DNA of 64,000 nt from Thermoleophilaceae bacterium. GTDB taxonomy: Bacteria; Actinomycetota; Thermoleophilia; Solirubrobacterales; Thermoleophilaceae. This document shows, in pieces, positions 18,669 to 63,560 of this stretch (position 1 is its first letter; each line of letters opens with the position of its first letter). A program made the translations under genes and the position numbers. The DNA is taken from assembly GCA_030447725.1 (NCBI GenBank), contig JAUJOQ010000001.1, forward strand, positions 519,422-583,421, read 5' to 3'. Below the pieces are notes generated by a model. It did no database searches. It saw only the letters and a list, made by a program, of their open reading frames with translations, and was not told the DNA's origin.

Positions 18669-19232
18669 TCACGGCGCCACCTCGGCGCACTGCGCGACGG
18701 CGACGATGTTCCAGTTGCCGGTCGTCCCTGCAGCGTCCTCGGTCGCCCCTACCCTGACGCCGGAGTTGTCCGGGGTGGGCAGTACGTAGGTGGCCTGCAG
18801 GTGCTGCTCGACCGTGTTGCCGCCTGCGTTCAGGTTGTAGCCGGTCCCGACGACCTGCTTGCCCGCCGGGCACGACACCGTCGCGGTCTTGGGCGAGGTC
18901 GAATCGAACGGGAGGGAGAAGCCCAAGACCCGCTCCAGGCCGCTGATGCCGGGTAGCCCCTGGGGGCCCACCGCGCCTGTGGGTCCCGCCGCGCCCGTCG
19001 GGCCTGGCGGACCGGTGTCGCCCCTCCTGCCCCTGAGCGAGGCGGCCGTCTTCCTGTTGAGGTCCTTCGTAGCGATCGTGCGGTTCTTGATGTCTTTGCT
19101 TGCGACGGAGCCGTCCTTGATCTGCGCCGAGCCGATCGTCGCCGCGGCATAGCCGACGCCGCCGAGGGAAACGAACAGCGCGACGACGCTCAAGACCATC
19201 GCAGGCGATTGGCTTTGGATCCAACGGTGCAT
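18669..19232 (-). CDS. Secreted protein with short collagen-like segment
   Basis: 187 residues, ATG 19232. N-terminal membrane or signal segment SPAMVLSVVALFVSLGGVGYAAATI, then about 11-residue repeats of the pattern I-K-(D/N)-x-(S/T)-(I/V) (SAQIKDGSVASKDIKNRTIATKD). A Gly-X-Y stretch follows (GDTGPPGPTGAAGPTGAVGP) and then a 90-residue beta-rich domain with three Cys (SCPAGKQVVG, VAQCAEVAP). Three related proteins lie in this window. Export is likely; function unknown. Confidence 0.8.
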   Translation of the reverse strand: MHRWIQSQSPAMVLSVVALFVSLGGVGYAAATIGSAQIKDGSVASKDIKNRTIATKDLNRKTAASLRGRRGDTGPPGPTGAAGPTGAVGPQGLPGISGLERVLGFSLPFDSTSPKTATVSCPAGKQVVGTGYNLNAGGNTVEQHLQATYVLPTPDNSGVRVGATEDAAGTTGNWNIVAVAQCAEVAP

Positions 19233-19291: not shown

Positions 19292-19975
19292 CTACTGGTC
19301 GACGCAGAGGACGACGACGCTGAAGTTGTCCGCCGCGCCGTTGTCGTTGATCCTCGCCAGCCAGGAGTTGGTGGTATCCGGCGCCGGGAAGCTCTCGAGC
19401 AGATCCGTGGTAGCCGAGATATTGGCCGGTCCCCCAGAGAGCAACGTGTCCCCGGCGTCACACGCCTGACTGATCACGTTGGTGGCATCGCCCAAGCGGG
19501 TGCCTGGGCCCATCACGGACTCGCGTTTGTAGACAGTGCTGCCAAGGAAGGCCGCGGGCGCCTTGCCGCCCAGCAGACCGGCATTCGGGACGCTTCCGAG
19601 TGTCGACTCGTTGACATCGGTGCCGGTCAGGCTGTTATCGGCCACCTTTGAGCCGTTCACGGCGTTCGGGCCGATCGCTGGATTGGGGTAAGTGCCCGCC
19701 AGGTCGCCGCCGGCAGGCCCGGCGGGGTTGGCGCTGTCGGCCGAGCTCGCGCTGCGCACCTCACCCAGGCTCCGCTCGAGGATGTCCGTCCCTTTCAGGC
19801 TGTTGTTCTTGACGTCCGTGCCACGGATCGTGTTGTTCTTGATCTCGCGGCTGTTGATTGAGCCGGTCGCGACACCGTAGGACACGCCGCCCATCGAGAT
19901 GAACAACGCTAGGACGCTGACGACCATCGCAGGCGAAGGTCGCCGCGCGCGGATGTGCTTGTGGATGTGCTTCAA
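19292..19975 (-). CDS. Secreted 11-residue-repeat protein, paralogue 2
   Basis: 227 residues, TTG start whose codon overlaps the stop of the preceding frame (TTGA). N-terminus RPSPAMVVSVLALFISMGGVSYGVATG, then SREIKNNTIRGTDVKNNSLKGTDILERSL, a repeat pattern expected to form a regular solenoid or coiled stem. A Pro/Gly/Asn-rich region (DLAGTYPNPAIGPNAV) and a C-terminal beta domain with Cys pairs (QACDAGDTLLSG, VVVLCVDQ) follow. Homologous in its N-terminal half to the genes at 18.7 and 33.4 kb. Confidence 0.8.
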   Translation of the reverse strand: MKHIHKHIRARRPSPAMVVSVLALFISMGGVSYGVATGSINSREIKNNTIRGTDVKNNSLKGTDILERSLGEVRSASSADSANPAGPAGGDLAGTYPNPAIGPNAVNGSKVADNSLTGTDVNESTLGSVPNAGLLGGKAPAAFLGSTVYKRESVMGPGTRLGDATNVISQACDAGDTLLSGGPANISATTDLLESFPAPDTTNSWLARINDNGAADNFSVVVLCVDQ

Positions 19976-33434: not shown

Positions 33435-34100
33435 CTACTCGGTCACCTCGACGTAGAAACGACGCGTTTGCGACGCCACGTCGGTGTTGTCCGCCAGTGA
33501 GCGCACCACCAGCACGTTGTCGACGTTCGTGCCGGTGGGCACGCAGTTGATCGCCGCCGTGTTGCAGCGCCCGACGGCGACGTCGCCGGCGAAAGCCGGG
33601 TCTGCGTCAGGGCTACCGGTGCGGTTGAGGCGGTTCTGAATCGCCGTGGTGGCGATCAGTCCATGGCCGACCAGGGACGAGCCGGCGTCGATGTAGATGT
33701 TGGGGTTGGTGGCCGGCTGGCCGTTGATCCCCGGCTTTGACATCACTGTGAAGCCCCCCGACTGCTCCTCGATGTCGCCGTTCTCGTTCACGAGCGCCCA
33801 GCGCACGGAGCTGGCGGAGATCTTTCCGATCTTGTCGAGCTCGAGCACCTGTTCCTTCACGGCGTTGCCGCCCACGCGCTCGATCTTGATGTCGGTGCCG
33901 TCGAGCGAGCGACGCCTGACCTCGGACTCGGTGATGGAGTTCGCCCGGATGTCCTGGGCGCGGAGGGTGTTGTCCTTGATCTCGCGGCTGTCGATCGATC
34001 CGGTGGCCACGGCGTAGGAGACGCCGCCCATCGACGCGAACAGTGCGATGCAGGCGATTACGAGGGCCGGTGACGGCCGGGAGCTGAAGATGCGCTTCAC
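33435..34100 (-). CDS. Secreted 11-residue-repeat protein, paralogue 3
   Basis: 221 residues, GTG start. SRPSPALVIACIALFASMGGVSYAVATGSIDSREIKDNTLRAQDIRANSITESEV copies the layout of the 19.3 kb protein almost word for word in the first 50 residues. The remaining part differs: a long beta domain with a Cys pair (VGRCNTAAINCVP) and ending in RRFYVEVTE. The shared N-terminus may be a common export and stalk module with exchangeable heads. Confidence 0.8.
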   Translation of the reverse strand: MKRIFSSRPSPALVIACIALFASMGGVSYAVATGSIDSREIKDNTLRAQDIRANSITESEVRRRSLDGTDIKIERVGGNAVKEQVLELDKIGKISASSVRWALVNENGDIEEQSGGFTVMSKPGINGQPATNPNIYIDAGSSLVGHGLIATTAIQNRLNRTGSPDADPAFAGDVAVGRCNTAAINCVPTGTNVDNVLVVRSLADNTDVASQTRRFYVEVTE

Positions 34101-34176: not shown

Positions 34177-35370
34177 TCAGCCGAGCAGCGAGGCGAACAC
34201 GTCGTCGACCTGTTGCCAGCCGATGCTCATCAAGAACTGCGAGTTGCGCCCGTATGACTTGGCGCCGAGGATGAAGAAGCCGGGCTCGGGATTGAGCAAG
34301 GTCTCGGGGCCGTGGCTGGTCTGGGCCAGGCAGTCGCCACCCCCGCCGGCCAGCAGCGTGGCGGCCAGCTTCATCGGCCCGCACGTGGCGTAGCACTCGT
34401 GGACCTGAAGCTGGCGGTATAGGGAGTGGTCGCCCACTCCGCCGTTCAGCGCCAGGATGCGGTCGACCTCCACCCGCTCCACGCTTCCGTCGCGCAGGGA
34501 GACGGCGATCCGCCCGCCGCTGGGCTGCAGCGCCTCTGTCACCCGCCCGGGGCGCACCTCCACCGCCGCCGAGTGGCCGCGCTGCAAATCCTCTGAGGCG
34601 CGGTTGAGCGAGGCTCGCTCGGGCAGGGGGTCGCCTTGCACCTTGCCCCAGTCGGGCCGCGGGCGGCGCACCGCCCAGATCACCTTGGTTCCGGGCGCAT
34701 GCCGGGCGAACTCGGCGAGCGCGCGGGCGGCGGTCTGTGCGGAGTGCCCGGAGCCGGTGAGAAGGACGGTGCGTCCCGCCCACTGGGAATGCTCCACGTC
34801 GAGCTGGGGCAGGAAGCGCTCGATGCGGTCCTCGAATGCGCGTTCGCCGGGAGCATCGATGCCGCCGTCGCCGAGCCGGTTGGGGTGGCCGTAGGTGCCC
34901 GAGCAGTCGATCACGGCGTCGGCGTGCTCGATCGACTCTGAACCGTCCGGCCCGGCGACCAGCAGCCGGAACCGCCGAGCCGCACGCTCGCTGGAGCCGA
35001 TCGCCTCGTGCTTGAGCAAGCCCTCCCGTCCCACTGCCCGCACTTTCGTGGCGAGGCGTACGCGGCCCACGAGCGCCGGGCCGGCTGCGAGCGGCTCGAT
35101 CAGACGCTCTACCAGCTCGTCTCCGGTCGGGAGCCCGCTGCCGTCGGGGGCTTGGACCCCGAGCGCCGCGCGGGCGCGATCGGACACGTTCATCTCCCAG
35201 GGGGTGAACAGGCGCACCTGCCCCCAGCGGCGCACGTAGCCGCCGGGCGAGGCGGCAGCCTCGTACACGGTGAAGTCCAGGCCGCGCTCGGCCGCGGCGA
35301 GCGCGGCTTCCAGGCCGATAGGGCCGGCTCCGATGATGGCGACTCGCCTGGGGGTTCGGATCTCTCCCAT
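34177..35370 (-). CDS. FAD-dependent oxidoreductase (flavin monooxygenase-like)
   Basis: 397 residues from ATG 35370 (or 35391). Two Rossmann motifs are visible: RVAIIGAGPIGLEAALAAAERG for FAD and VLLTGSGHSAQTAARAL for NAD(P)H. Between them are VIDCSGTYGHPNRLG and KVIWAVRRPRPDWG. The C-terminus ILALNGGVGDHSLYRQLQ...GPETLLNPEPGFFILGAKSYGRNSQFLMSIG resembles thioredoxin-reductase/FMO hybrids. The substrate is unknown. Divergent from the MPE-radical SAM gene with about 55 bp between starts. Confidence 0.88.
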   Translation of the reverse strand: MGEIRTPRRVAIIGAGPIGLEAALAAAERGLDFTVYEAAASPGGYVRRWGQVRLFTPWEMNVSDRARAALGVQAPDGSGLPTGDELVERLIEPLAAGPALVGRVRLATKVRAVGREGLLKHEAIGSSERAARRFRLLVAGPDGSESIEHADAVIDCSGTYGHPNRLGDGGIDAPGERAFEDRIERFLPQLDVEHSQWAGRTVLLTGSGHSAQTAARALAEFARHAPGTKVIWAVRRPRPDWGKVQGDPLPERASLNRASEDLQRGHSAAVEVRPGRVTEALQPSGGRIAVSLRDGSVERVEVDRILALNGGVGDHSLYRQLQVHECYATCGPMKLAATLLAGGGGDCLAQTSHGPETLLNPEPGFFILGAKSYGRNSQFLMSIGWQQVDDVFASLLG

Positions 35371-35425: not shown

Positions 35426-37114
35426 GTGCGCATCGCGGCCTTTGGAGGCGCATACGCCAATCCCTACGCCCTCCGCGCGATGCTCGATGACGCGCGCGTC
35501 CGCGGCTGTGAGCGGATCCTCAACCTGGGAGACCTCGGCGGCTTCGGCGCCGAGTGCGACGCGGTCTGGCCGCTGCTGGAGGAGTTCGGAGTCGAGTCGA
35601 TCGCCGGCAACTACGACATCGCCATCGGGCGCGGGGACGAGGACTGCGGCTGCGGCTACTCATCCGAGCGCGACAACGAGTTCGCCCAGCTGATGTACGA
35701 CCACACGCGCGCGAACACGGGCGTCGCGTTCGCCGCCTGGATGCGCGGGCTGCCGGGCGAGCTGCGTGAGGAGATCGACGGGGTGGACGTGCATGCGGTG
35801 CACGGATCGCCGCTGGCGGTCAACGACTTCCTGTGGGAGTCGCTCGCGGACGACGAGCTGGGCCTGCGCGTACGCGAATCGGGCGCCGGCGTGCTCCTGT
35901 GCACCCACACCGGCATCCCCTGGCAGCGGGAGCTGGACGGCACGCTGGTGGTCAACGTCGGTGCCGTCGGACGCCCCGCCAACGACGGCCGGCGCGAGAC
36001 CTGGTACGCGGTCCTCGACCTCCACGACGGCGTGGCGCGCGCCCGGCTGGCGCCCGTCTCCTACGACTGGCGCGCTCAGGCGGCGTCGATGCGCACGGCC
36101 GGGCTGCCGGAGGCTTTCGTCGAGACGATCGAGTCGGGCTGGTGGACCACCTGCCTGGAGGTCGTGCCTCCAAGGGAGCGTGCGCGCGGCCGCTACCAGA
36201 TGTACCGCGATGCGGTGCCGGCCGGCTTCGCCGCCGGCGACGGTGCGGGCTGGGCGGATGCCCCGGCGTACGAGGACCGCGGCCTGCCGGTGGTCTCGAT
36301 GTTCGGCACCGACGCCTTCCCGGCGCGGCTGTGGATCTACTCGAACTTTCACTGCAACCTGGCCTGTGGCTACTGCGTGGTGGCGTCCTCGCCGCGGGCG
36401 CGCAGGCGCGAGATCGCGGCGGATCGCTTCCGAGCGCTCGTCGACGAGGCCCTCGAGGAGGGCTTCCGCGAGCTGTACGTGACCGGAGGGGAGCCGTTCG
36501 TGCACCCGCAGATCGTCGACATGCTCGAGTACGCGAGCGCGCGGCTCCCGACCGTGGTGCTCACCAACGCGATGCTCTTCACCGGCCGCCGGGCCGGCGA
36601 GCTGGAGCGCCTGGCGGGGTGCGAGCGGCTGGTGCTGCAGAGCTCGGTGGACGGTGCGCGCCCCGAGACGCACGACCGCTGGCGCGGCGCGGGATCGTGG
36701 GCGCGTGCGATGGAGGGCATCCGCTTCGCCCGCGACCTGGGGCTGCCGCTGCGCGTCGCCATGACCGAGACGCCGGAGAACCGCGGCGAGGTCTCACAGC
36801 TCGGGGATCTGCTTGCCGGCTTCGGGATCGAGGGCAGCGACTTCGCGGTGCGCCCGCTGGTGCAGCGCGGGTTCGCCGAGGGGCTGGACGCCGGCATCGA
36901 GATCTCCGAGGGCGTGATGGCGCCCGAGCTGACGGTGACCGCCGACGGCGCGCACTGGCACCCGGTGGGAGGCGACATCGAGTCGAGTCCGGACTTCGTG
37001 GTGGCGCGCGGCGAGGTTGCGCTCGCCGACGCCAAGCGGGCGGTGATCGAGCGTTTTCTGGAGCTGCGTCTGGAGGACGGCACCCTGCCCGCCGCGTTTC
37101 GCTGTGCGGTTTGA
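35426..37114 (+). CDS. Metallophosphoesterase-radical SAM fusion protein
   Basis: 562 residues, GTG start. Residues 1-about 225 follow the YfcE/DR1281-like phosphoesterase plan: LNLGDLGGFG (motif II), GNYD (III), VHGSP (IV), CTHTGIPW (V) and VVNVGAVGRPANDGR. The first metal motif D-x-H, which should open the fold, reads FGGAYANP, so one metal ligand set is missing. Residues about 300-520 are a radical SAM domain: CNLACGYC with Cys310, 314 and 317 for the 4Fe-4S cluster, then VTGGEPFVHP and LTNAMLF. No SPASM-type Cys cluster is visible. The reaction is unknown. Its stop overlaps the TTG of the GT2 gene. Confidence 0.88.
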   Translation: MRIAAFGGAYANPYALRAMLDDARVRGCERILNLGDLGGFGAECDAVWPLLEEFGVESIAGNYDIAIGRGDEDCGCGYSSERDNEFAQLMYDHTRANTGVAFAAWMRGLPGELREEIDGVDVHAVHGSPLAVNDFLWESLADDELGLRVRESGAGVLLCTHTGIPWQRELDGTLVVNVGAVGRPANDGRRETWYAVLDLHDGVARARLAPVSYDWRAQAASMRTAGLPEAFVETIESGWWTTCLEVVPPRERARGRYQMYRDAVPAGFAAGDGAGWADAPAYEDRGLPVVSMFGTDAFPARLWIYSNFHCNLACGYCVVASSPRARRREIAADRFRALVDEALEEGFRELYVTGGEPFVHPQIVDMLEYASARLPTVVLTNAMLFTGRRAGELERLAGCERLVLQSSVDGARPETHDRWRGAGSWARAMEGIRFARDLGLPLRVAMTETPENRGEVSQLGDLLAGFGIEGSDFAVRPLVQRGFAEGLDAGIEISEGVMAPELTVTADGAHWHPVGGDIESSPDFVVARGEVALADAKRAVIERFLELRLEDGTLPAAFRCAV

Positions 37115-37803
37115 GCCCCGGCGGGCCGCTCGTCTCGGTGATCGTCCCGACCCTCGACGAGGAGAGGGCCCTTCCGGGTCTGCTCGACCACGTCGACTCC
37201 CTTCCCGGGCGGTGGGAGGTGCTGGTGGCCGACGGCGGCTCACGCGACGCCACCGTCGACATCGCGGTGGGACGCGACGTGCGCGTCGTGCATGCGTCGG
37301 GAGGCCGCCCCCGACAGCTCAACGACGCAGCCCGAGAGGCGGGCGGCGAGTTGCTGCTGTTCCTCCACGCCGACTCGCGGCTGCCGGCCGGCGCGTACGC
37401 GTCGCTGACCTCGGCGACCACCGACCACGGAATCGCCGGTGGGAACTTCGCCCTGCGCTTCGATGGGGAGGACGGCTTCGCGCGCCTGCTCACGGCCGCC
37501 TATGCGTTCCAGCGGCGGTTGGGCTTCTACTACGGCGATTCATCGGTGTGGGTCAGGCGCGAGGTGTTCGAGCGCCTCGGCGGCTACCGCGACCTCGAGA
37601 TCATGGACGACTACGACTTCGTCCGCCGGCTGGAGGCCGGTCATCGAACGGCGTGCCTGCCAGGACCGGCGCGGACGAGCGATCGCCGCTGGCGACGCGC
37701 CGGCCTGGCGCGCACTCTGTTCTCGTGGTGGGCGATCCGCCTGCTGTACGTGGTCGGCCTGCCGCCGTCGCGGCTCGCACGGCTCTACCGGCGGGTGCGG
37801 TGA
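37111..37803 (+). CDS. Family 2 glycosyltransferase of the TIGR04283 type
   Basis: 230 residues, TTG start overlapping the previous stop (TTGA). LVSVIVPTLDEERALPGLLDHV, VLVADGGSRDATVDIA, the ASGGRPRQLNDAA segment and LLLFLHADSRLP are the features of the TIGR04283 group, named after the glycosyltransferase of some arsenosugar clusters. EIMDDYDFVRRLEAG supplies the late acidic motif. It transfers a sugar from a nucleotide donor to an unknown acceptor, possibly the product of the coupled radical SAM protein. Confidence 0.9.
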   Translation: MSPGGPLVSVIVPTLDEERALPGLLDHVDSLPGRWEVLVADGGSRDATVDIAVGRDVRVVHASGGRPRQLNDAAREAGGELLLFLHADSRLPAGAYASLTSATTDHGIAGGNFALRFDGEDGFARLLTAAYAFQRRLGFYYGDSSVWVRREVFERLGGYRDLEIMDDYDFVRRLEAGHRTACLPGPARTSDRRWRRAGLARTLFSWWAIRLLYVVGLPPSRLARLYRRVR

Positions 37804-38023: not shown

Positions 38024-38084
38024 GGGGCTGGAAGAGCGCCTGCTTTGCAAGCAGGAGGTCGCCGGTTCGAGCCGGCTGGCTCTA
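38024..38084 (+). tRNA. tRNA-Ala(TGC) relic lacking the 5' half of the D-arm
   Basis: The anticodon arm is intact: stem CCTGC/GCAGG (38039-38043, 38051-38055) with loop TTTGCAA and anticodon TGC at 38046-38048. The T-arm GCCGG-TTCGAG-CCGGC has a six-base loop, one short of normal. Acceptor strands GGGGCTG and TGGCTCT can pair only with several G-T wobbles. Between acceptor and anticodon only GGAAGAGC remains, so the 5' D-stem is deleted. A functional tRNA is unlikely. It marks the left side of the accessory region and may be a remnant of an integrase target site. Confidence 0.6.
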
Positions 38085-38263
38085 TAGATGACCACCGGCG
38101 CGACCAAGCCCACCGACGTTTCCAACAGGAGAGTGCGTCACGGGGAAGGAACACTCCGCGCCGCCCGGGGCCGCTCTGCGGGCGAAGCTATTGTAGCTCG
38201 CGGGGGAACCGTTGTCCGCCGGGTCCGGCCGGAGCAGGCTCGATCGACCTGTAGGCAGGCGCG

Positions 38264-38313
38264 ATGCCGACTCCCCAAACACGCCACGATGCCGACTCCC
38301 CAAACACGCTACG
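38264..38313 (+). repeat. 25-bp tandem duplication over the cyclase start codon
   Basis: ATGCCGACTCCCCAAACACG occurs at 38264 and again at 38289, with one mismatch in the remaining bases of the 25-bp unit. Because 25 is not a multiple of three, the first ATG is out of frame with the gene and opens a 136-codon decoy frame; the second ATG is the true start. Confidence 0.85.
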
Positions 38314-39779
38314 CGAAGAGCGGCGATGTCAACGTCGCCTACCAGGTATTGGGCGAGGGCCCACTCGACCTCGTCTACGTGTGGGGCTGGCTCTCGCACC
38401 TCGACCTCCAATGGACCGAGCCGACGGTCGCGAGCTTCCTGCAGCGGTTGGCCAGCTTCTCCAGGCTGATCATGTTCGACAAGCGCGGCACGGGGCTGTC
38501 GGACCCGGTGGGAGCCGCTCCCACCTTCGAGGAGCGGATGGACGATATCCGGGCGGTGATGGACGCCGTCGGCTCGGAGCGGGCGGCGCTGTTGGGCTTC
38601 TCCGAGGGGTCGGCGCTCAGCTGCCTCTTCGCCGCCAGTTACCCCGAGCGCACCACCGGGCTGATCCTCTATGACAGCTTCGTGGTGGGACTGGACATAG
38701 AGGACGCCCCACGGGACCTCACGAGAGGAGTGCACGCTTTGGAGGTCCGCGAGACGATCGAGCGCTGGGGCGAGGGGGAGACGATGCGATGGGTCGCGCC
38801 GTCGGTCGCCGAGAGCGGCGTGGAGAAGCGCTTCTGGGGCATGTTCGAGCGGGCCTCGATGAGCCCGGGCATGGCGCTGTCGCTGTGGGAGGCGATCCAG
38901 CAGGTCGACGTTCGGGACGTGATGCCAATGATCAGGGTGCCGACGCTCGTGCTCCACCATGCCCACTCGTCGATCCCGGCTGCAAACGGAAGGTTGACGG
39001 CGGAGCTGATTCCCGGCGCGCGCTACGTCGAGCTTCCCGGTCGGGACCACCTGCCCGGTGCGGGCGATCCGGAGGCGATCGCCGGCGAGATCGAGGAGTT
39101 TGTCACCGGGACGCGCGCCGGCGGCCGTCCGGACCGGGTGCTCGCGACCGTGCTGTTCACGGACATCGTCGATTCCACTCGCCGTGCGTCAGGGCTTGGC
39201 GACAGCGCCTGGCGGCAGCTGCGGGAGCGCCACGACGCGCTCGTGCGCTCGCAGCTCGAGCGCTTCCGCGGCCGCGAGGTGAAGCAGACCGGCGATGGCT
39301 TCCTCGCACGCTTCGACGGCCCCGCTCGGGCGATCCGCTGCGCCTGCTCGATCGGTGAGGAGGCGCGTGAGCTCGGCATCGAGATCAGGTCCGGTCTTCA
39401 CACCGGCGAGTGCGAGCTGATCGGCGACGACCTCGGCGGCGTCGCCGTTCACGTCGCAGCGCGAGTAGGCGCCATGGCGCAGGCGGGTGAGGTGCTCGTC
39501 TCCGGAACGGTCAAGGACCTGGTTCTGGGCTCTGGGATCGACCTCGCCGACCGCGGCGTTCACGAGCTCAAGGGCGTCCCCGGCCAATGGCAGCTGTTCG
39601 CGGTCGCAGGCCACGACGGTCCACCACCGAGCGCCGCTGCGAAGTCAGCGGGGTCTGCCGACGGGCTCGGTCTCAGCGACCGGGCCGGACTGCGTCTCGC
39701 TCGATGGGCTCCCGGGCTTACACGAGCCGGTACGCGGGCGCTGCGGCGTGGGCGGGCGCGGACTAGACGATCGGGCTGA
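38289..39779 (+). CDS. Alpha/beta-hydrolase fused to class III adenylate/guanylate cyclase (1)
   Basis: 496 residues from ATG 38289. Residues 1-about 275: hydrolase with IMFDKRGTGLSD, the nucleophile elbow LLGFSEGSAL, and the late His in LPGRDHLPG. Residues about 285-450: cyclase homology domain with VLFTDIVDSTRRA (metal Asp), VKQTGDGFLARFDGPARAI and GLHTGECELIGDDLGG, ending with ADRGVHELKGVPGQWQLFAV. Such fusions make cAMP or cGMP in a ligand-dependent way or combine two cytoplasmic activities. A basic tail follows. A close paralogue lies at 62.2 kb. Confidence 0.93.
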   Translation: MPTPQTRYAKSGDVNVAYQVLGEGPLDLVYVWGWLSHLDLQWTEPTVASFLQRLASFSRLIMFDKRGTGLSDPVGAAPTFEERMDDIRAVMDAVGSERAALLGFSEGSALSCLFAASYPERTTGLILYDSFVVGLDIEDAPRDLTRGVHALEVRETIERWGEGETMRWVAPSVAESGVEKRFWGMFERASMSPGMALSLWEAIQQVDVRDVMPMIRVPTLVLHHAHSSIPAANGRLTAELIPGARYVELPGRDHLPGAGDPEAIAGEIEEFVTGTRAGGRPDRVLATVLFTDIVDSTRRASGLGDSAWRQLRERHDALVRSQLERFRGREVKQTGDGFLARFDGPARAIRCACSIGEEARELGIEIRSGLHTGECELIGDDLGGVAVHVAARVGAMAQAGEVLVSGTVKDLVLGSGIDLADRGVHELKGVPGQWQLFAVAGHDGPPPSAAAKSAGSADGLGLSDRAGLRLARWAPGLTRAGTRALRRGRARTRRSG

Positions 39780-40590: not shown

Positions 40591-41669
40591 TCAGTCGCCG
40601 GGCCGGCGCGTGAGTGCGCGCAGCAGGCCGCCCATGCCGCCTTCTCGGTGCGCCACGTGCTGGAGGCCGGCTCCGCCTCCCTGACCGGCCAGCGCTGTCA
40701 GGCCCTCGAGCTCTTCCGCGCATCCCAGCGCCCGCGCCACCGGGCGCGCGAGCTCCAGCGCCTCGTCGAGCAGGTCGGCCACCGGCCGCAGCCGCCCGGC
40801 TGCGCCGGGCAGCATGGCCGCCACCCCCGCCCGGGCGGCCTTGAACGACGCCTCGTCGAGGATCTCGGGCGCCGGTCCCGCCACCGGCTCGGCCTGCGCT
40901 TCGTGGCGGGCCAGCGACTGCACGGCGGCCACCAGGGCGGCGGTGTGCTCGGGCCGCGCCTGCACGTCCAGGGCGCGCAGCTCCACGGTGCCCAGCCGCG
41001 GGTGGGGGCGCAGCTTCCACCAGTGGAAGGTGTAGTCGGGCACCTCGGCCACGGCGGTCAGCGCCTCGGTGGACTTCTCGAAGTCTCCGAAGCTGGCGAA
41101 CGCGCGCGGGGCTCCCGACCGCGCCCACGCGCGAAGGGTGATCTCGCGCGCGGAGGCGAGGCCCGTGTCGCGGCCGTGGCGAAACGGCGAGTTCGCGCCC
41201 AACGCCTCGAGCAGGGGGGGTGGCGGCGCAGCCCGTTGAAGACCCGGATGGCCGTCTCGGGGTCCGGCACGCCCACGTGCACGTGCAGGGCCGAAACCGG
41301 CGTGGCCACGGCGTCGCCCAAGAGCGAGCTGATCAGCTGGTAGCGCTCCTTGTTGCTGACCTGCGCCTCACCCTCCTGGGCGCTCGGGTGAGTGCCCGAG
41401 CGCAGCAGGCCCACGCCCGCGTCGAGCACGGCACGCTCGAGCTCGCCGAGCTGTCCCATCGCATCGGCCACCGTCTCGCACACCCCGCTGATCAGCTCGA
41501 CCTGGCAGGCCAGCACCTCTCCTTCGACCTCGCCGGCGTCCGGAGCGTCGAGGCGGTCGAGCACGGCGGCCGAGTCGTTGAGCAGCGCCCCAGTGGCGGG
41601 CGCCACCAGGCACAGCTCCTCCTCGACGCCGAGGGAGAAGGGCTCGCCGGTGCCGAAGGAGTGCTCCAC
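40591..41669 (-). pseudogene. Carboxylate-amine ligase / glutamate-cysteine ligase (YbdK-like), frameshifted at a G7 run
   Basis: The first frame (ATG 41669) has FSLGVEEELCLVAPATG, VELISGVCETVADAM, LRSGTHPSAQEGE, RYQLISSLLGD and ALHVHVGVPDPETAIRVFNGLRRHPP. It then leaves phase at the run of seven G (41214-41220). With eight G the sense continues as LLEALGANSPFRHGRDTGLASAREI...YTFHWWKLRPHPRLGTVELRALDVQ. The complete protein would be about 360 residues and would make gamma-glutamylcysteine or a related amide. The break may be an ordinary homopolymer sequencing error, so the gene could be intact in the cell. Confidence 0.85.
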
Positions 41670-62222: not shown

Positions 62223-63560
62223 GTGCAACCGAAGACCCGCTACGCCCGCAACGGTGAGGTGAGCCTCGCCTACCAGGTCTTCGGGGAGGGAGGGCTTGAT
62301 TTGGTGTTGGTCACCGGATGGGTGACTCCGATGGATTCGTTCTGGGAGGAGCCCCGCCACGCTGAGTTCAATGAGCGGCTGGCCTCGTTTGCGCGAGTCA
62401 TCTGGATGGACAAACGCGGGACAGGCCTGTCCGACCGAGTCTCACTGGACCGCCTCCCGACGCTCGAGGAGCGGATGGACGACGTTCGCGCGGTCATGGA
62501 CGCCGCGGGCTCTGAGCGCGCGGCGTTGTTCGGCTTGTCTGAGGGCTCGCCCCTGTGCGCCCTCTTCGCCGCCACCCATCCAGAGCGCACGGCTGCCTTC
62601 GTCTCCTACGGCGGCTTCCCCAGGCAGATCTACGACGAGGACTTTGAGTGGATGGCCGACCGGGAGGCGCTCGAGGACTTCGCTGAGGGGTTGCGCGAGG
62701 CCTGGGAGGACATCGGGGGCCTGTTGGAGCTCTGGGCGCCCAGTGCCGCCGACGAGCCCGGCGCCAAGGAGCGTTTCGGGCGTGGGTGGCAGCGCGGTGC
62801 GAGCCCCGCCGCGGCGGGCGCGTGGCTTGAGATGTCGATGGACGCCGATGTCCGCGACATCCTTCCGGCCATCCGCGTGCCGACGCTCGTCCTCCACAGA
62901 GTCGAGGACATGATCATTCCGTCGGAGTGCGCCAGGTACATGGAGCGGCGGATCCCCGGTGCCCGCCTCGTCGAGCTGCCAGGCGTGGATCATCTCTGGT
63001 GGTATGGCGATCACGACGCCCTGCTTGATGAGGTGGAGGAATTCCTCACCGGGGCGCGGCGAGCGCCCGAACCCGATCGGATTCTGGCAACGGTGCTGTT
63101 CACGGACATCGTTGGCTCGACATCGCGGGCGGCGGGCCTAGGCGACCGGAAATGGCGAAAGCTCGTCGAGCGACACGACGAAATCGTGCGGTCGGAGCTC
63201 CAGCGCTACCGCGGCGAGGAGATCAAGACGATGGGCGACGGCTTCCTCGCCACGTTTGACGGCCCGGCTCGCGCGATCCGGTGCGCGTGCGCAATACGCG
63301 ACGCCATCGACACTATCGGCCTGCAGCTGCGTGCGGGGCTCCATACCGGCGAGTGTGAGCGGATGGACGGCGACATCGGCGGAATCGCGGTCGCGATCGG
63401 AGCGCGAGTCGCCGCGATCGCCGGATCCGGCGAAGTCCTGGTCTCGAGCACCGTCAAGGACCTGGTTGCCGGGTCTGGGATCAGCTTCGAGGACCGCGGC
63501 ATGCAGGTCCTCAAGGGAGTACCGGACGAGTGGCGCTTGTTCGCCGTCGCTGCTCTGTAG
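62223..63560 (+). CDS. Alpha/beta-hydrolase fused to class III nucleotidyl cyclase (2)
   Basis: 445 residues, GTG 62223. Hydrolase half: TRYARNGEVSLAYQVFGEGGLDLVLVTGW, VIWMDKRGTGLSDRVSL, nucleophile elbow ALFGLSEGSPLC and late LPGVDHLWWYGDHDALL. Cyclase half from about 293: VLFTDIVGSTSRAAGLGDRKW (metal Asp), IKTMGDGFLATFDGPARAIRCACAIRDAI and GLHTGECERMDGDIGGIAVAIGARVAAIA, ending DRGMQVLKGVPDEWRLFAVAAL. Colinear with the protein at 38.3 kb over its whole length, but without that protein's basic tail. Confidence 0.93.
   Translation: MQPKTRYARNGEVSLAYQVFGEGGLDLVLVTGWVTPMDSFWEEPRHAEFNERLASFARVIWMDKRGTGLSDRVSLDRLPTLEERMDDVRAVMDAAGSERAALFGLSEGSPLCALFAATHPERTAAFVSYGGFPRQIYDEDFEWMADREALEDFAEGLREAWEDIGGLLELWAPSAADEPGAKERFGRGWQRGASPAAAGAWLEMSMDADVRDILPAIRVPTLVLHRVEDMIIPSECARYMERRIPGARLVELPGVDHLWWYGDHDALLDEVEEFLTGARRAPEPDRILATVLFTDIVGSTSRAAGLGDRKWRKLVERHDEIVRSELQRYRGEEIKTMGDGFLATFDGPARAIRCACAIRDAIDTIGLQLRAGLHTGECERMDGDIGGIAVAIGARVAAIAGSGEVLVSSTVKDLVAGSGISFEDRGMQVLKGVPDEWRLFAVAAL

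Follow-up and report, generated by a model that had tools for sequence, protein, structure and literature searches.

A conserved metallophosphoesterase–radical SAM fusion in Actinobacteria and its possible place in an arsenosugar-type pathway

The open reading frame at positions 35426–37114 of a 64,000-nucleotide stretch of DNA from a Thermoleophilaceae bacterium (contig JAUJOQ010000001.1, positions 519,422–583,421; the whole stretch is termed here the window) raises the question of what a phosphoesterase domain with altered metal ligands does in one chain with a radical S-adenosylmethionine (SAM) domain. An earlier reading of the window from its letters only (termed here the sequence-only reading) had proposed this fusion, together with a small pathway in which a phosphorylated or nucleotide-like substrate is modified by radical chemistry and then glycosylated. 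The open reading frame and both Pfam domains are confirmed. With regard to the pathway, comparisons of sequences and gene neighbourhoods lean toward a role for the fusion in making the carbon–arsenic (C–As) bond of an arsenosugar-type pathway, one that yields organoarsenical glycosides, where it would replace the radical SAM enzyme ArsS. The features of the fusion gene are:

35426–37114, + strand: metallophosphoesterase (Car1-like)–radical SAM fusion, 562 amino acids (aa), GTG start, 92 full-length homologues
35426–36160, + strand: N-terminal metallophosphoesterase-fold (Car1-type) domain, residues ~1–245, identified by Metallophos_2, by Foldseek and by 31% identity to an ars-operon metallophosphoesterase
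35447–35455, + strand: G8-x-Y10, where metal site 1 normally has its D-x-H ligands (89/89 alignable fusions)
35645–35653, + strand: C74-G-C76, matching the Cys74/Cys76 redox pair of Car1 (92/92 fusions)
35900–35914, + strand: C159-T-H161-T-G163, with H161 (metal site 2) kept and the second His (metal site 1) changed to Gly (92/92 fusions)
36320–37111, + strand: C-terminal radical SAM domain, residues 299–562, related to the Rv1681 family NF049973 and below its cut-off
36353–36376, + strand: CxxxCxxC cluster motif C310/C314/C317 (92/92 fusions)

Pfam places Metallophos_2 at residues 1–201 (41.6 bits, cut-off 27) and Radical_SAM at residues 309–446 (70.5 bits) of the same chain. The motifs FGGAYAN, GDLGG, GNYD, HGSP and CTHTG, read earlier from the letters, are all present, as is the triad C310-x3-C314-x2-C317; the C-terminal half displays both the motif and the domain of the radical SAM superfamily. 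An AlphaFold model shows both halves well predicted (mean pLDDT 85.7) with an uncertain relative orientation (pTM 0.58). Foldseek searches show the first half to be nearest to 3rqz, SapH (3qfm) and 1nnw (TMt ~0.8), with Vps29 also among the matches, and the second half to resemble SkfB, DesII, SuiB and BlsE. The best curated match of the radical SAM half is NF049973 (276.8 bits, below the cut-off of 380), where fusion residues 299–561 align with profile positions 71–326. With the ArsS model TIGR04167 the fusion gives 43.5 bits, under the NCBI equivalog cut-off of 300.

Twelve further full-length fusions, with 57%–73% identity, are found in 199 genomes of the class. A scan of genome contigs yielded 80 loci with the fusion architecture, in Solirubrobacterales, other Thermoleophilia, Streptomyces, Pseudonocardia, Catenulispora, Frankiales and others, and a sample of the phylum added genomes termed Rubrobacter-like (a label inferred in this analysis) whose fusion has 50%–52% identity end to end. 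Ninety-two full-length fusions were compared by residue, and at least that many are conserved in Actinobacteria. Given the 12 class homologues, the 80 loci with this architecture and the 92 proteins with the same diagnostic residues, the fusion is not an assembly or frameshift artefact. No paper describing a metallophosphoesterase–radical SAM fusion was found in the literature searched, which left most subscription papers outside; within the same limit, the earlier statement that no characterised pathway has this architecture agrees with the searchable literature.

The sequence-only reading pointed to the loss of the first metal motif, D-x-H. The loss is real but the description is too narrow, as metal site 1 is wholly gone. 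All three ligands private to this site are replaced identically: G8 and Y10 are found in all 89 fusions with an alignable N-terminus, and G163, at the second His of the GHxH motif, is found in all 92. Metal site 2, by contrast, retains all of its ligands (D36, N62, H126 and H161), which are invariant in the 92 full-length fusions, and C74, C76, C159, C243 and the radical SAM triad are likewise invariant. The Rubrobacter-like fusions display the identical residue pattern. The fusion has the Metallophos_2 domain of a dinuclear phosphoesterase but not both metal sites (D-x-H, GD, GNxx, H, GHxH), and it has Cys74 and Cys76 of a Car1-type protein but not the intact dinuclear metal site. Judged by the alignment, the loss of site 1 is a specific conserved remodelling and not decay. 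An intact or phosphate-binding esterase was considered and was rejected from the residue table of the 92 fusions.

The closest intact stand-alone relatives of the N-terminal domain are encoded in ars operons with ArsR, ArsM, ArsB/ACR3 and ArsC. These relatives retain D-x-H (11 ars-operon metallophosphoesterases) and GHxH, and 10 of the 11 compared have a DCGC motif. In Thermoleophilia genomes, including the source genome, the stand-alone metallophosphoesterase adjoins ArsM, ArsR and an aquaporin; in the source genome it lies at C1:410594 beside ArsM at C1:413224. Plasmid loci show, by public annotation, the arrangements ArsR-metallophosphoesterase-arsM, ArsR-metallophosphoesterase-GNAT-arsB-arsC, ArsR-arsB-metallophosphoesterase-metallophosphoesterase and ArsR-arsN2-ArsM-metallophosphoesterase-arsB. 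One such metallophosphoesterase, from a Paraclostridium ars operon, is reported to share ~40% identity with the Rufibacter tibetensis As(V) reductase Car1, including the essential Cys74 and Cys76 (PMC12124457). A plasmid-encoded Paraclostridium protein aligns with the fusion at 31% identity and has C74/C76 at identical residue numbers.

Car1 is reportedly a dinuclear, thioredoxin-coupled metallophosphoesterase with Cys74 as the nucleophile toward arsenate and Cys76 as the resolving residue; for hydrolysis, both of its metals are said to be important. The fusion shares with Car1-type arsenate reductases the fold, the positions of Cys74 and Cys76 and the ars context of its closest intact relatives, but it differs in the G/Y/G pattern at metal site 1, the radical SAM fusion and the glycosyltransferase operon. 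A Car1-type domain that has lost site 1 and has the Cys pair would more readily be a redox or arsenic-binding domain than a phosphoesterase. The earlier suggestion that the domain binds phosphate is not borne out, as its nearest relatives are ars-operon Car1-type proteins and the Cys pair is invariant; the same ancestry and the invariant C74/C76 speak against a phosphorylated or nucleotide-like substrate.

Two neighbouring genes complete the locus in the window:

37111–37803, + strand: TIGR04283 family glycosyltransferase (GT83), translationally coupled (208.6 bits, cut-off 182)
34177–35370, − strand: FAD/NAD(P) flavoprotein, divergent from the fusion, of a family near 39/83 fusion loci

The stop codon of the fusion (37112–37114) overlaps the TTG at 37111 of the glycosyltransferase gene, as the sequence-only reading had noted, and the divergent flavoprotein gene that it described was also found. 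The TTG is a sensible start because the TIGR04283 profile begins at residue 8 of the TTG-initiated protein.

Neighbours were counted at 83 distinct fusion loci within a radius of 12 kb. The counts are minima because many loci are on truncated contigs. TIGR04283 is present at 69 loci, a second radical SAM protein (termed rS2) at 50, a MerA-like flavoprotein at 46, the flavoprotein family of the window at 39, TIGR04282 at 38, an MTAP-like phosphorylase at 34, an ArsM-type methyltransferase at 18, VTT and MauE at 17 each, and PhnD at 8. The ArsM loci are mostly from Streptomyces, with others from Pseudonocardia and from loci of the PhnDEC type, and the one representative Streptomyces ArsM tested is full-length (E-value = 4e-113 with solved ArsM structures). 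In a small control, 15 loci surrounding MTAP genes, taken from genomes of this class, showed no ArsM. The locus in the window is a reduced one, consisting of the fusion, GT83 and the flavoprotein, with ArsM, rS2 and the MerA-like gene elsewhere in the genome. A CDP-alcohol phosphatidyltransferase gene was considered as a core gene and rejected: it is near only 13/83 loci and in the source genome lies within a housekeeping region.

Arsenosugars had been set aside in the sequence-only reading because ArsM and ArsS do not appear in the window. It is correct that neither is there, but the fusion has as neighbours the genes that accompany true ArsS, and ArsM is encoded near some fusion loci and elsewhere in the source genome. 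True ArsS loci of the same phylum (above the TIGR04167 cut-off; L145–L148) show the order GT83 > ArsS > MTAP-like phosphorylase; one of them has VTT upstream and another has TIGR04282. The order in fusion loci is MTAP > GT82 > GT83 > fusion; the Rubrobacter-like locus L181 shows MFS > fusion > GT82 > GT83, together with MerA-like, MTAP and VTT genes. In a phylogenetic tree the phosphorylases of fusion operons and ArsS operons group together relative to canonical MTAP with 100/100 support, only six canonical MTAP sequences being included. Over the homologous loci the complete ArsS-like partner set (TIGR04283, MTAP-like phosphorylase and ArsM) is found; the window alone has TIGR04283 only. ArsS scores above the cut-off in 0/14 genomes (12 with the fusion, one with the radical SAM half alone and one with a stand-alone relative only), and the best match to the ArsS model in these genomes is usually the fusion itself. 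The simplest reading is that the fusion takes the position of ArsS. The two have in common the radical SAM core and the partners TIGR04283 and MTAP-like phosphorylase, with TIGR04282 and VTT at some loci. Unlike ArsS, the fusion is under the ArsS model cut-off, has an additional N-terminal Car1-like domain and is without the ArsS C-terminal cysteine region.

A relative of the phosphorylase is also found in a conserved housekeeping locus of Solirubrobacterales (ksgA, ispE, glmU, prs; L157–L165), which sometimes adjoins a TIGR04282-like gene and is present in genomes without the fusion as well. The idea that MTAP-like genes are exclusive to fusion operons was therefore rejected, as related copies lie in this locus with and without the fusion.

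The fusion architecture and its residue pattern, the homology with ars-operon metallophosphoesterases and the neighbourhood shared with ArsS and ArsM suggest a scheme in which the reduction by the N-terminal domain, the arsenical used, the group transferred and the final product are all putative. The N-terminal domain, a Car1-type fold that would have lost phosphoesterase activity with site 1 and kept site 2 and Cys74/Cys76, would use C74/C76, close to the site 2 metal, to reduce a pentavalent arsenical (arsenate or a methylated form) or at least to keep it bound in thiolate form. The radical SAM domain would add a SAM-derived group to the trivalent arsenic, most likely 5′-deoxyadenosyl, as in ArsS. 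The MTAP-like phosphorylase would then remove adenine, and the TIGR04282 and TIGR04283 enzymes would build the glycoside. A stronger version of the scheme, offered more tentatively, is that in one chain a pentavalent arsenical is reduced at a thiol site derived from a metallophosphoesterase and the trivalent arsenic is passed to the radical SAM site for C–As bond formation. This could represent an undescribed, widespread route to organoarsenical glycosides, and possibly to lipids via rS2, in Actinobacteria including Streptomyces.

rS2 is present in 13/13 genomes of the class with the fusion or its radical SAM half (the latter in genome G175) and in 3/186 others (Fisher 7e-18, uncorrected for relatedness). 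The copy in the source genome is outside the window, at C1:593698–595077, about 37 kb downstream of the fusion, and is 72% identical. However, rS2 is found in 0/3 Rubrobacter-like genomes with a full-length fusion, which rules it out as an obligatory partner and suggests an added step or accessory function. Since these genomes have the fusion, GT82, GT83 and MTAP without rS2, the fusion can be the sole radical SAM enzyme. rS2 represents an uncharacterised actinobacterial family with no Pfam match above the cut-off. A profile search of the PDB by sequence yielded no match. The predicted fold (pLDDT 85.8, pTM 0.87) is nearest to the archaeal tetraether lipid synthase GDGT-MAS/Tes (7tol, E-value = 2.5e-11), and an action of rS2 on a lipid substrate may be entertained as speculation from the model.

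One example from the alphaproteobacteria shows the two domains as separate genes, a finding that the sequence-only reading had named as one that would count against the fusion. Plasmid p546-1 of Roseomonas haemaphysalidis (NZ_CP061178.1; L171/L176) encodes a degenerate metallophosphoesterase with the identical G/Y/G and C/C pattern. Two radical SAM proteins are encoded separately from it, a short one homologous to the fusion half and a long one homologous to rS2. The plasmid also carries PhnDEC, MauE, MerA-like, VTT, TIGR04282 and TIGR04283-like glycosyltransferase genes. Because the split genes are both present on p546-1, the degenerate metallophosphoesterase and the radical SAM protein are coupled even when unfused. 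In a tree the Roseomonas protein groups with the fusion domains relative to ars-operon metallophosphoesterases (100/99), a placement to be read with caution as the branch is long. A plasmid search with the Roseomonas metallophosphoesterase yielded no match beyond itself. The separation is seen in part in a Thermoleophilia locus (L046; G175:C116), where the radical SAM half (280 aa) is encoded on its own among the usual partners. The metallophosphoesterase half is not at the locus, and a genome-wide search gave no match at E 1e-20. As the radical SAM half keeps the same partners there, the metallophosphoesterase domain can be lost. Both cases retain the partner genes and thus support a functional module rather than refute one.

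Several points weigh against the arsenosugar proposal. The L046 genome has the radical SAM half without the metallophosphoesterase half, and reductase activity is putative in a domain that has lost metal site 1, given the importance ascribed to both metals in Car1. The radical SAM half is nearer to the uncharacterised Rv1681 family than to ArsS, and the ArsS C-terminal cysteines are not present. ArsM is adjacent at only the 18 loci counted above and not in the window, and the source genome shows neither TIGR04282 nor a fusion-type MTAP at E ≤ 1e-12. The word "arsenosugar" in TIGR04282 and TIGR04283 is a database name. Finally, the loci of one clade combine the fusion with PhnDEC transporter genes and lack GT83.

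The first two of these points bear on a different role for the N-terminal domain, that of a non-redox binding or docking module which holds an arsenical or an oxyanion on behalf of the radical SAM domain, in a pathway that is still organoarsenical. Vps29, a degenerate metallophosphoesterase fold used as a scaffold, is among the structural matches, metal site 1 is gone from all fusions, and the L046 genome manages without the domain. A pure scaffold, however, would not need C74/C76 and the site 2 ligands, which are invariant in 92/92 fusions, and we consider this role unlikely.

The PhnDEC clade leaves room for a substrate that is a phosphonate or another oxyanion-derived compound, with arsenic genes adjacent through shared uptake and detoxification. 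In this clade (L065, L069, L073, L075, L076, L082, L124, L131) the fusion is followed by PhnD-PhnE-PhnC, several of the loci also have ArsM, and TIGR04283 is not present. The mycobacterial stand-alone Rv1681-type relatives follow PhnD and acyl-CoA dehydrogenase genes. Yet ArsM follows PhnDEC at L065, L075 and L124 of the same clade, and the Car1-type ancestry and the ArsS-like partner set also make a phosphonate substrate improbable.

With regard to the Rv1681/MoeX family (NF049973), the C-terminal half of the fusion aligns with its profile (277 bits over positions 71–326) but stays below the cut-off, and family members are without the metallophosphoesterase half and have acyl-CoA dehydrogenase and PhnD as partners. 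In a Mycolicibacterium vanbaalenii plasmid (L170) and in genome G336 (L178), PhnD-like and acyl-CoA dehydrogenase genes stand immediately before the Rv1681-type genes; L170 also has a glutaredoxin and an MFS gene, as fusion loci do. For Rv1681, the designation "MoeX, molybdopterin" seems doubtful.

The pathway of the sequence-only reading, in which a degenerate phosphoesterase would hold a phosphorylated or nucleotide-like substrate for modification by radical chemistry and then glycosylation, draws on the presence of the Ap4A hydrolase SapH among the structural neighbours. The relatives by sequence, however, are ars-operon proteins with the Cys pair, and there is no nucleotide-specific partner except the phosphorylase, which is itself also found in ArsS operons; this pathway is very unlikely. 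A peptide (RiPP, ribosomally synthesized and post-translationally modified peptide) maturase is suggested by the structural likeness of the radical SAM half to SkfB and SuiB, but it is hardly credible given that the 83 distinct loci have no conserved small precursor gene and that the partners are methyltransferase, phosphorylase and sugar enzymes.

In the literature covered, two radical SAM enzymes, ArsS and ArsL, are described as forming C–As bonds. ArsL, of arsinothricin biosynthesis, is a radical SAM enzyme that makes a C–As bond and adjoins ArsM (PMC8552651). It resembles the proposed role of the fusion in both respects, but it transfers a 3-amino-3-carboxypropyl group and its operon is arsQML. 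The bisenarsan (bsn) pathway of Streptomyces is another example of organoarsenic secondary metabolism in actinomycetes and has no SAM-dependent enzymes (PMC12159101); its gene set is unrelated to that of the fusion loci. If the arsenosugar proposal is true, chemistry of a type known via ArsS in cyanobacteria and algae would also be widespread among soil Actinobacteria, carried out there by a different enzyme, and Streptomyces would gain an organoarsenical pathway distinct from bisenarsan. The puzzling degenerate phosphoesterase domain would be explained as a redox domain. The proposal would also provide a testable lead for the uncharacterised mycobacterial Rv1681 (MoeX) family, the named family nearest to the fusion by its radical SAM domain.

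Other features of the window were noted as well. The sequence at 38024–38085 (+ strand) resembles the 3′ two-thirds of an Ala-type tRNA, with a TGC anticodon loop and a T arm; ARAGORN calls no gene there, and the piece is possibly the remnant of an attachment site. At 40591–41669 (− strand) two open reading frames that overlap out of frame resemble a single gene for a carboxylate-amine ligase (glutamate-cysteine ligase-like), interrupted by a frameshift or by a sequencing error. The open reading frames at 38289–39779 and 62223–63560 have similar alpha/beta-hydrolase starts, and the first also contains an adenylate/guanylate cyclase domain as a fusion. The genes at 18669–19199, 19292–19927 and 33435–34100 (− strand) encode three small proteins, secreted or in the membrane, that resemble one another and display a VALFxSxGGVxYA start and repeated segments of the DIKxNxI type.

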